A stretch of DNA of 40,533 nucleotides from Bacteroidota bacterium (GTDB lineage Bacteria > Bacteroidota > Bacteroidia > B-17B0 > Aurantibacillaceae), in the NCBI GenBank assembly GCA_021323535.1, contig JAJONO010000056.1, positions 1 through 40,533 on the forward strand, in the 5' to 3' direction. The notes under the pieces are model-generated. The model searched no databases. It worked only from the letters and a program-made list of their open reading frames with translations, and was not told the DNA's origin. Every line of letters starts with the position of its first letter. Position 1 is the stretch's first letter. Below, piece after piece: positions 5,024-8,506 of the stretch. The translations under genes were made by a program, and so were the position numbers.

Positions 5024-5665
5024 TTATTTCTTTTTTGGTGCTATTACCATTTGCATTTTCTTTCCTTCGAGAAGCGGGAGCTGTTCTGCTTTTCCGAATT
5101 CTTCGAGTTCGTTAGCGAAACGCAATAATAAAATTTCACCTTGTTCTTTAAACACGATCTCGCGTCCTCTGAAGAATACATAAGCTTTTACTTTGCATCC
5201 ATCTTTAAGGAAATTGATTGCGTGATTCTTTTTAAAGTTAAAATCATGTTCATCGGTATGCGGACCAAAACGGATATCTTTAATTACGATTTTTGAAGCT
5301 TTAGCTTTCATTTCTTTAGCTTTCTTTTTCTGTTCGTAAAGAAATTTGCCGTAATCTACAATTTTACACACCGGAGGATCTACATTAGGAGCTATCTCAA
5401 CAAGATCAAGTTCCTGGGCACGCGCCATTTCAAGCGCTTTCTGAATAGGGTAAACGCCTGCTTCAATGTCCTCTCCCACTACACGCACCTGGCGGGCAGT
5501 GATCTTTTCATTGATCTTGTGTTGTTCTTCTTTTACGCCTGGACGTTTAAATCCGGCCTTTAGACCTCTTGGTTGTTTGAAAACTGGTTTCTGTTCCCCC
5601 GGCTTTATTGGACCTGTATTGGTATTGCCGGTTGGTTTTGGCTTTGGTTTGTAAGGATTAGCGAT
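5024..5665 (-). CDS. infC: Translation initiation factor IF-3, with ATC start
   Basis: IF-3 binds the 30S subunit, prevents premature 50S joining and proofreads the initiator tRNA and start codon. The core [18 protein letters not shown] and the C-terminal [11 protein letters not shown] segment are classic IF-3. No ATG exists before the conserved core; the first GTG (5488) would cut off INEKITARQ and much of the N-domain. Extending in frame reaches ATC at 5663-5665, five bases after GGAGG, giving a 213-residue protein with a proline/lysine-rich N-terminal extension ([10 protein letters not shown]) common in Bacteroidota IF-3. Rare AUU/AUC/AUA starts are the known basis of IF-3 autoregulation in other bacteria. 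It follows thrS by 113 bp, but rpmI-rplT do not follow it; a terminator does. Confidence 0.93.
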
Positions 5666-5778: not shown

Positions 5779-7725
5779 TTATTCTGTTTTTTGTTTAAAA
5801 TCGTTTTCTATGATTTCGTTCACAAATTTAATAAAATCATCGATACTTAAAACACCTATGTCACCTTTTCCGTGCTGGCGGACAGCCACTTTATTCTCGG
5901 CTTCTTCCTTTTCTCCAACTACTAACATGAATGGTATTTTCTTTACTTCGTTATCTCTGATCTTTTTACCGATCTTTTCATTACGATCATCGACAAAACC
6001 TTTAATATCAACGGCTGCAAGCGCGTTCATGACGTTATTAGCATAGTCGTTATATTTTTCGCTGATAGGTAAAATCGCAAATTGTTCAGGCGTTAACCAC
6101 ATAGGGAAATTGCCTCCACAATGTTCAATTAAAACTGCGATAAAGCGTTCAAGACTTCCAAATGGCGCCCTGTGAATCATAACAGGACGGTGTTTCTGAT
6201 TGTCGCTTCCGGTGTATTCAAGCTGGAAACGTTCTGGTAAATTATAATCTACCTGAATGGTTCCTAACTGCCATTTTCTTCCTAAAGCGTCCTTCACCAT
6301 AAAATCCAGTTTTGGTCCGTAGAAGGCAGCTTCTCCGAGTTCAACCACGGTTTTAAGATTTTTTTCCTTAGCGCTTTCGATAATGGCTTGTTCTGCTAAA
6401 ACCCAATTTTCTTCTGAACCTATATACTTGGTTTTATTTTCCGGATCACGAAGACTGATTTGTGCAGTATAATCTTTAAAATCGAGCGCGTTAAAAACAT
6501 GCAATACAAGATCGATCACTTTACAGAATTCTTCTTTTACCTGGTCGGGACGGCAGAATAAGTGTGCATCATCCTGGGTAAACCCACGAACACGTGTCAA
6601 CCCATGTAACTCGCCATGCTGCTCGTAACGGTAAACAGTTCCGAATTCAGCATAACGGATTGGAAGATCTTTATAACTGCGTGGTGAAGATTTATAAATT
6701 TCGCAATGGTGCGGACAGTTCATCGGTTTTAAGAAAAACTGTTCTCCTTCTTGCGGAGTATTAATTGGCTGAAAAGAATCCTTACCGTATTTTTCATAGT
6801 GGCCGCTGGTAACGTATAGTTCTTTTTGCGCAATGTGTGGAGTAACCACGGGAAGATATCCTGCTTTGGTTTGGGCGCGACGCATGAACTGCTCGAGTTT
6901 ATCGCGAAGCATTGCTCCTTTTGGTAACCAGAGAGGCAGTCCCATTCCCACTTTCTCAGAGAATGTAAAAAGCTCGAGTTCTTTTCCGAGTTTACGGTGA
7001 TCGCGTTTTTTTGCTTCTTCAAGAAGAACAAGATACTCTTTTAGTTCTTTATCTTTCGGAAAAGTGATTCCGTAAATACGTGTAAGTTGTTTGTTCTTCT
7101 CATCACCACGCCAGTAGGCACCGGCCACGCGAAGTAACTTCACTGCTTTAATGAAACCTGTATTTGGAATATGCGGACCACGGCAGAGATCTGTAAAATC
7201 TCCCTGGGTATAAAAAGTGATTGTACCATCGGCCAGGCCATCGATGAGTTCCAGTTTATACTGATCACCTTTTTCGGTAAAATATTTTATAGCGTCGGCT
7301 TTCGAAACTTCTTTACGGATGTATTCGCTTTTCTTCTGAGCGAGTTCCATCATTTTAGCTTCTACTTTTGCAACTTCATCAATAGAAAAAGATTTATCTC
7401 CGAAGTCAACATCGTAATAAAACCCGTTTTCCACAGCGGGGCCGATAGCGAATTTGCTTCCCGGATAAAGGGCTTCAAGAGCTTCCGCCATTAAATGCGC
7501 AGAAGAGTGCCACATGGTTTCTTTACCATCCTGGTCGTTCCACGTTAACAGCTGTAATGTTGAATCTGAGTTGATGGGTCTTGTGGCGTCCCATATTTCG
7601 CCGTTTACTTTTGCTGACAACACGTTGCGTGCCAAACCTTCGCTGATGCTTAAAGCGATTTGCAGTGATGTAGTTCCTTTTTCATATTCGCGAACTGATC
7701 CATCGGGTAGAGTTATTTTTATCAT
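5779..7725 (-). CDS. thrS: Threonyl-tRNA synthetase
   Basis: A 648-residue class II aminoacyl-tRNA synthetase that charges tRNA-Thr in the cytoplasm, of full length for the family. Residues 1-60 are a TGS domain. The editing (second additional) domain carries H73 and H77 (HSSAH) with C181 and H185 (CRGPH), the residues that clear mischarged Ser-tRNA-Thr. The catalytic core shows the zinc cysteine in [12 protein letters not shown], motif 2 around [24 protein letters not shown] and motif 3 [11 protein letters not shown]. The C-terminal ~100 residues are the anticodon-binding domain ([10 protein letters not shown]). Start ATG 7725 is preceded by a short leader with a hairpin that may control translation. 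infC follows 113 bp downstream. Confidence 0.97.
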
Positions 7726-7733
7726 ATTGAGTT

Positions 7734-7753
7734 CCCTGCTTACAAGTGCAGGA
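7734..7753 (-). promoter_or_regulatory. thrS leader hairpin with a tRNA-Thr-like anticodon loop
   Basis: On the reverse strand CCTGC pairs with GCAGG (plus an outer T-G pair), closing the loop ACTTGTAA. Seven of its eight nucleotides, CTTGTAA, equal the anticodon loop of tRNA-Thr(UGU): U33, anticodon UGU, then A37 A38. The hairpin ends 8-9 nt before the ATG, over the weak purine-rich AGGGA. By analogy with the E. coli thrS operator, where ThrRS binds a mimic of the tRNA-Thr anticodon arm, this could be an autogenous translational operator. The loop is one nucleotide longer than in tRNA. Confidence 0.5.
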
Positions 7754-7765
7754 TTAATTTGATGA

Positions 7766-7773
7766 CAAAGATA
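7766..7773 (-). promoter_or_regulatory. thrS -7 promoter element
   Basis: TATCTTTG on the reverse strand is a perfect TAnnTTTG. The -33 position has TTT and not TTG. The transcript would begin near 7760, leaving a leader of about 35 nt that is mostly the hairpin at 7734-7753. Confidence 0.6.
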
Positions 7774-7837: not shown

Positions 7838-8506
7838 TCAAATTGACATAGCAAAAGAAATCTGACTTCGTGAATTGTCATATTCCTCAACAAAATTTAC
7901 AAGTTCGGGATCCATCCAATAGAGAAGATTATAAATTTTTTCTGATATGTACTCTACCTGAGTAAAGTTTATAACGGTATTCCTAAAACAGATACTTTCA
8001 TTATGATAAACTCTATTCCTGAACTCTCTGATTTCTTTTAAGTAAGTTGCTAAAACTGCTCTATTGGCAAAAGAAGGCCGAAACGGAAAACATTGGATAA
8101 TATTTCCGTGGAGCAATCTGTAATGTTTGGGTTCAAATAAACAAGTCCAGAAACCAAGGGGCTGTTCAGAAATAATTTTCCCAGGAGTTAATGATCCTAC
8201 CAAATTTCTTTCTGCATTATTTACCTGTTGTTTCAGCCAAAATACAGGACCTAAAGAGTTATCCGACATAAACTCATATTTCTGGTTGATGATCCATGAA
8301 TCATCGTTAAAATAATTAGTTAATTTATTATTAATTGAATTTCTCAGAAAAGTCTCAAATAAGTTTAATATCGGATAAAAAGATTGAGCCACAAGAATAT
8401 TTGCTTTGTAAAGCTTTAAAGCTCTTTCCTGTGAATAATTACAGCTCAACAGATATCTTTCAAATCTAGGCTCAGAAATAAAATGACGGAACTTTCTGTC
8501 ATCCAT
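7838..8506 (-). CDS. Abi-like (AbiD/F family) HEPN-type protein
   Basis: A 222-residue soluble protein of the Abi_2/AbiF-like family, whose members include phage abortive-infection proteins and probable RNases. Family features are the N-terminal FERYLLSCNYSQERALKLYKAN-like opening, the NLFETFLRNSINNKL helix, GKIISEQPLGFWTCLFE in the middle, and REFRNRVYHNE near the end. The last contains R163-N-R-V-Y-H168, the R-x4-H signature of HEPN RNases, so RNA cleavage is a reasonable inference. It is a single gene between thrS and a divergent regulator, with no obvious partner protein. A candidate small RNA with its own terminator is transcribed divergently at 8566-8648. Role in phage defence or as a toxin is inferred from family only. 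Confidence 0.8.
   Translation of the reverse strand: MDDRKFRHFISEPRFERYLLSCNYSQERALKLYKANILVAQSFYPILNLFETFLRNSINNKLTNYFNDDSWIINQKYEFMSDNSLGPVFWLKQQVNNAERNLVGSLTPGKIISEQPLGFWTCLFEPKHYRLLHGNIIQCFPFRPSFANRAVLATYLKEIREFRNRVYHNESICFRNTVINFTQVEYISEKIYNLLYWMDPELVNFVEEYDNSRSQISFAMSI

Follow-up and report, generated by a model that had tools for sequence, protein, structure and literature searches.

A Candidate Threonyl-tRNA Synthetase Operator Imitating the tRNA-Thr Anticodon Arm in thrS Leaders of Bacteroidota

Results

The thrS Locus and Its Leader Hairpin

The window, by which we mean the whole 40,533-nucleotide stretch of DNA analysed here, carries on its minus strand thrS (positions 5779–7725), encoding a full-length threonyl-tRNA synthetase (ThrRS) of 648 aa with TGS, SAD, class II core, and anticodon-binding domains, and 3′ of it, in the same direction, infC (IF-3; 5024–5488, minus strand). 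This thrS is the sole place in the source genome above the thrS family cut-off. Its product has all four Pfam domains expected of a complete bacterial ThrRS, N-terminal domains included, and residues N582, E607, and R616 align with N575, E600, and R609 of the Escherichia coli enzyme, which we take to be anticodon contacts. Directly 5′ of thrS lies a codirectional 222-aa ORF (7838–8506, minus strand), for which no Pfam match is found at E 0.001.

A sequence-only reading of this DNA had placed a hairpin upstream of thrS, at 7734–7753, and that span is exact. In the DNA letters of the minus strand the element reads T-CCTGC-ACTTGTAA-GCAGG-G, and as RNA U-CCUGC-ACUUGUAA-GCAGG-G; five Watson-Crick pairs (plus-strand positions 7735–7739 with 7748–7752) are extended by a terminal G·U pair (7734/7753). 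The 8-nt loop occupies 7740–7747 (minus strand), with U33, in tRNA numbering, at 7745 and the anticodon-like U34, G35, and U36 at 7744–7742. The thrS ATG is at 7725–7723, so that the hairpin ends 8 nt before it, within the 8–9 nt proposed. Bacteroidota promoters have a −7 element of consensus TAnnTTTG; since a putative element of this kind, TATCTTTG at 7773–7766 on the minus strand, fits it, the locus is consistent with the leader of about 35 nt that had been suggested, with the hairpin near its extreme 5′ end. By itself the hairpin folds at −8.7 kcal/mol (z −2.8), and a 75-nt piece of the leader gives a z of −0.6, so folding energy on its own is unremarkable here. A single hairpin is weak evidence in any case; the strong evidence comes from comparison of leaders.

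The loop had also been described as the exact anticodon loop, CTTGTAA, of tRNA-Thr(UGU). This is true of an irregular tRNA-Thr(UGU) whose variable arm is long and whose gene sits in an array of tRNA genes on contig C66 of the source genome; its anticodon arm (CCTGC-CTTGTAA-GCAGG) has the stem of the window's thrS leader. It is not true of the regular tRNA-Thr(UGU), whose anticodon loop among the 30 of 55 tRNA places examined is TTTGTAA and thus differs at position 32. The tRNA gene arrays of this genome (G000:C66:63302-66544, L243, and G000:C138:19653-21463, L248) are dense, with 14 genes in 3.7 kb and nine in 4.6 kb, several of them irregular, and are perhaps phage-derived.

Conservation and Covariation within the Genus

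The window's genus was represented by 37 genomes, 32 of them with a readable thrS start, and the leaders were scanned for an arm with a stem of at least 5 bp, a loop of 7 or 8 nt, and GU at anticodon positions 35–36. All 32 readable leaders have such an arm, ending 8–14 nt 5′ of the ATG, so close relatives of the window do not lack the hairpin. Nor is the triplet free to vary: it is UGU in 31 of the 32 and, in the leader from G014, CGU, which is another Thr anticodon. Thirty loops are 7 nt long (e.g., GTTGTAA, GTTGTTT, TTTGTTT), and 8-nt loops occur only in the window (ACTTGTAA) and in G014 (ACTCGTAA). The eighth loop base had been regarded as the main weakness of the anticodon-loop comparison, an objection that loses its force given the 30 genus loops of 7 nt and the E. 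coli operator arm, whose base pairing likewise leaves a loop of 8 nt in that register. By the scan, the window and all 32 genus leaders have one arm each, not the two of the E. coli operator.

Stem covariation among related leaders, proposed as a check, is present. Across the 18 different arms found in the genus, 100% of cells are paired, against 91.1% in shuffles, none of 500 of which is as high, and these pairing figures are not biased by the dropping of unpaired leaders, because all 32 passed the scan; slid structures reach at most 52.8%. The covariation score is 0.361, against a shuffle mean of 0.160, and again no shuffle among 500 reaches it. Changes on both sides of a pair convert A-U to G-C at pair 4, and C-G to both A-U and U-A at pair 5. 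Two of the five covariation measures do not exceed all shuffles, namely how many pairs change on both sides (two, reached by 178 of 500) and how many further pair types occur (five, reached by 13 of 500), and three of the five stem pairs are invariant. With an arm in each of the 32 readable leaders, a covarying stem, and a loop that keeps its register, the proposal of an anticodon-arm mimic in this leader gains in substance, and from these comparisons we regard it as well supported that the element imitates the anticodon arm of tRNA-Thr at the RNA level.

In the genus, one genome carries a further thrS that is only distantly related to the window's (G002:C87:57285-59201; 53% identity), and the scan finds no arm in the leader of this copy (L060).

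A Loop Rule Shared by Unrelated Stems

For a wider view we assembled 56 leaders of relatives, 79 named loci, and 70 phylum-wide leaders, 205 in all, of which 201 are distinct after removal of four duplicates. The relatives came from 60 genomes, three without a match and two without a usable start, one genome (G002) giving two leaders; of the 80 named loci, 79 were kept and L126 was dropped (its match begins at residue 7, at a contig edge); and the phylum-wide leaders were taken from among the matches listed, 235 genomes having a match. An arm with GU is found in 84 of the 201 distinct leaders, against a mean of 5.0 and a maximum of 12 in 100 shuffles, a fraction that does not describe the phylum, because proximity to the query guided the choice of the named set, and kinship that of the first, and a count that does not represent independent events, because the leaders are related sequences. 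With U33 also demanded, 80 of 201 leaders have the arm. The antisense strand gives it in 2 of 201 cases, random pieces drawn from these loci in 22 of 2120, and starts of other ORFs in 7 of 310. Even when the U33 condition is lifted, 117 of the 201 leaders have no arm.

When hairpins are tabulated irrespective of loop sequence, GU stands at positions 35–36 in 57 of the 7-nt loops and in 49 of the 8-nt loops, and any other dinucleotide in at most ten of either. U33 is present in all 57 of the 7-nt GU loops, with T51, A3, C2, and G1 at base 34, and in 44 of the 49 8-nt loops, with T39, C7, and A3; G35 and U36 are imposed by the search in these tallies, yet they dominate without any condition. The proposed UGU mimicry must therefore be restated: the anticodon register is indeed kept, but the conserved unit is UNGU and not UGU. 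The shared rule, U33-N34-G35-U36, is what Thr anticodons have in common.

The stems follow clade. They are CCTRC-like in the window's genus, ATCAC in Sphingobacteriaceae, and TGCCT/GGGCA in Algoriphagus, with CCGATG, CCAAATG, GATTTTC, AAGGT, and ATCAAGGT elsewhere; the stem sequences are unrelated between clades, and the loop rule is common to all. Lowering the stem threshold to 4 bp adds two Algoriphagus leaders (L113, L114) and one from Hymenobacter (L131), along with two AT-rich stems of family f27 that are probably chance.

Outside the main clades the sampled leaders are mostly without an arm. Twelve of the 70 phylum-wide leaders pass the scan, L192, L220, and L231 among them without U33; the scan finds no arm in 10 of 12 leaders of f27 (L200 and L202 pass) or in 31 of 33 from other classes, where the two that pass, L220 and L231, both lack U33. 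The four of 84 arms without U33 (those three and L044) are probably chance matches, and the arm of L200 sits 5′ of a −7-like motif. Several f27 leaders of different genera, L195 and L198 among them, share a recurrent TATATATTGTATGT-like stretch some 40–60 nt 5′ of thrS; by eye it is placed 5′ of the −7-like element and, judged from that position, is probably outside the mRNA.

Specificity for thrS

A 5′ hairpin could simply protect the mRNA or tune ribosome access, ThrRS being uninvolved, and hairpins of this size are common in the leaders of other synthetase genes of the genus (metG 15/30, hisS 5/30, serS 16/29). The loop rule that holds at thrS hardly appears there, however: an arm with NGU is found in 0 of 30 metG, 1 of 30 hisS, and 1 of 29 serS leaders, these being 30 loci per gene out of more matches, one serS locus without a start, with the in-frame ATG lying furthest upstream within 25 codons taken as the start, which may be wrong for some loci. 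Since a generic hairpin also gives no reason for U33, G35, and U36 to be kept in the anticodon register, we judge this explanation improbable and favor an element addressed to ThrRS.

A fixed pattern with a 7-nt loop gives 44 matches in 35 of 40 genomes of the genus, against ten for the reversed control pattern. The matches comprise 31 thrS leaders (28 at positions already known, three confirmed), 11 places inside ORFs, the anticodon arm of one tRNA gene, and one place (G011:C599) with no thrS behind it, so within the genus no further regulated gene emerges from this pattern, whose reach is limited to CCTRY stems.

Arms That Contain the Start Codon

Leaders of Sphingobacteriaceae usually have two arms. 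In 26 leaders, all from this family or from family f25, the AUG is inside the second arm, typically AATCAT-AGTTGTAG-ATGATT, where it forms part of the 3′ strand; 22 of the 26 also have an upstream arm, which ends 37–72 nt before the AUG. The second arm of L116 carries CGU in its loop (ATTCGTAG). A fixed second-arm pattern is matched in 135 of 201 genomes in the family of G178 and its control in eight; part of these matches were placed, and the nine places examined include one before thrS (L277), one apparent insertion site (L278), one in no ORF of at least 80 aa (L282), and six inside ORFs. Minimum-energy folds were computed for five example leaders: those of L178, L202, and L087 form the first arm, or the only one present, and that of L116 forms the second; in L178 the second arm is absent, and in L085 neither arm forms and the two pair with each other. 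Because these folds do not always give the arms, it is possible that the two-arm leaders act as a switch, or that ThrRS would complete the fold.

These arms also bear on whether the inverted repeat might act as DNA, an operator for a transcription factor just 3′ of the promoter. In the window the repeat does lie near the putative −7 element, and across the survey 63 of the 84 leaders with an arm have a −7-like motif within 40 nt 5′ of their first arm, compared with 13 of 410 pieces of background sequence. For a DNA operator, one would expect half-sites to be kept and the centre to vary, whereas here the arms covary and differ by clade and the asymmetric UNGU centre is kept. Moreover, the centre is kept in one orientation, with 2 of 201 in antisense, and the second arm of Sphingobacteriaceae extends into the AUG. 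Such an operator is, in our estimation, very improbable, and we return to an element read as RNA.

Distribution on the ThrRS Tree

On a FastTree phylogeny of 85 Bacteroidota ThrRS sequences, 42 of them from leaders with an arm, the presence of the arm needs ten changes, at least seven forced by well-supported branches. The arm accompanies 22 of 22 Sphingobacteriaceae and 8 of 8 members of the window's clade, and is absent from 25 of 32 rows on the Cytophagales-like side. An old origin with many losses is possible, as is repeated origin of the arm, the sampling outside Bacteroidota consisting of E. coli K-12.

Discussion

The thrS operator of E. coli is the textbook example of tRNA imitation by an mRNA. 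As described in the literature, ThrRS binds anticodon-like arms of the thrS leader, thereby blocking the 30S subunit, and changing the operator triplet to that of methionine passes control to MetRS (PMC7373986, PMC9976931, PMC3858243); the operator has two anticodon-like parts, domain 2 and a second anticodon-like domain (PMC9976931), and repression requires the N-terminal domains of ThrRS (PMC7373986). When the K-12 thrS leader was scanned from 4 bp over 170 nt, it yielded an arm, ATTTAGC-ATTTGTTG-GCTAGAT, with an 8-nt loop by base pairing and UGU in the register used here, the only one of six hairpins listed to have GU in that register. Closer to the AUG, a further hairpin can be seen by eye to carry UUCGU; it escaped the scan because its stem is interrupted.

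The Bacteroidota element resembles this operator in several respects: it lies in the leader of the same gene, as a hairpin mimicking the tRNA-Thr anticodon arm with a Thr triplet after U33; the window's loop of 8 nt has its counterpart, in the same register; the neighboring gene 3′ of thrS is infC and the ThrRS is full length; and the genus arm, 8–14 nt from the ATG, is on geometry alone close enough for competition with the 30S subunit. The two differ in that the window's genus has one arm in a leader of about 35 nt, whereas E. coli has two arms in a long leader; in that the second arm of Sphingobacteriaceae contains the AUG; and in stem sequence, that of E. coli being unrelated to those of Bacteroidota. 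Weighing this sequence evidence, we think it very probable that the hairpin in the window is an autoregulatory operator for ThrRS and works as the E. coli operator does.

If so, the 5′ end of the thrS mRNA would fold into a hairpin imitating the anticodon arm of tRNA-Thr, and ThrRS present in excess over its tRNA would grip this arm with its anticodon-binding domain through U33, G35, and U36. Bound over the start region, the enzyme would prevent 30S binding, and less ThrRS would be made. From the E. coli precedent and from the kept identity bases we infer that the leader is bound by ThrRS, which then represses translation of its own mRNA. Free tRNA-Thr would displace the enzyme from the arm by competition, and the two arms of Sphingobacteriaceae may serve one subunit each of a ThrRS dimer. 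In that family, ThrRS on the second arm would clamp the start codon shut, because the AUG is part of that arm's 3′ strand. On balance, we lean toward the view that these leaders represent a widespread and unrecognised class of ThrRS operator in Bacteroidota, gained or lost many times and including a Sphingobacteriaceae form in which direct clamping of the AUG would replace the covering of a neighboring site. In the open-licence literature searched, no thrS or ThrRS operator is reported for Bacteroidota.

T-boxes bind tRNA itself by means of a specifier codon. They offer another form of tRNA-related control of thrS, which is a frequent T-box target in Firmicutes, and the same source counts none across seven Bacteroidetes/Chlorobi genomes (PMC2494555). 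The Bacteroidota leader differs in bearing an anticodon-like loop, and its length of about 35 nt leaves little room for a T-box. Scanning the window with Rfam gives no family at gathering score, and ten related loci give only a tRNA gene at the gathering thresholds; that the element is a T-box or some other known leader RNA seems to us so improbable that it can be set aside in favor of a ThrRS operator.

Yeast HisRS and other synthetases are reportedly also associated with anticodon mimics in mRNA. Such a mimic is described for the mRNA of yeast AspRS (PMC9976931), and yeast ThrRS is said to bind RPC10 mRNA at an anticodon mimic (PMC9956033). These systems are alike in placing a synthetase on an anticodon-like stem-loop of an mRNA, with an effect on translation, and differ in being eukaryotic and in involving other genes, or a target that is not the synthetase's own mRNA.

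The occurrence of one loop rule on unrelated stems suggests that this mode of control may be far older, or more easily evolved, than E. coli alone would lead one to suppose. The leaders also provide natural variants for the study of synthetase-mRNA recognition, with four bases at position 34, loops of 7 and 8 nt, one arm or two, and the AUG inside or outside an arm, and they offer material on translational repression in a phylum whose members mostly do without Shine-Dalgarno sequences.

A further use of these arms is hinted at in an f25 genome, G390. A two-arm thrS leader in L278 (around 1000–2001; G390:C21:820400-822400) is followed by an integrase-like gene (Pfam Phage_int_SAM_5), not by thrS, and on a different contig of the same genome thrS is preceded by another copy of the arm that holds the AUG (L277; G390:C11). 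The copy in L278 was considered as a new regulated target and rejected, since it resembles an insertion site; apparently an integrative element in G390 attaches at the tRNA-mimicking arm, much as other such elements do at tRNA genes.
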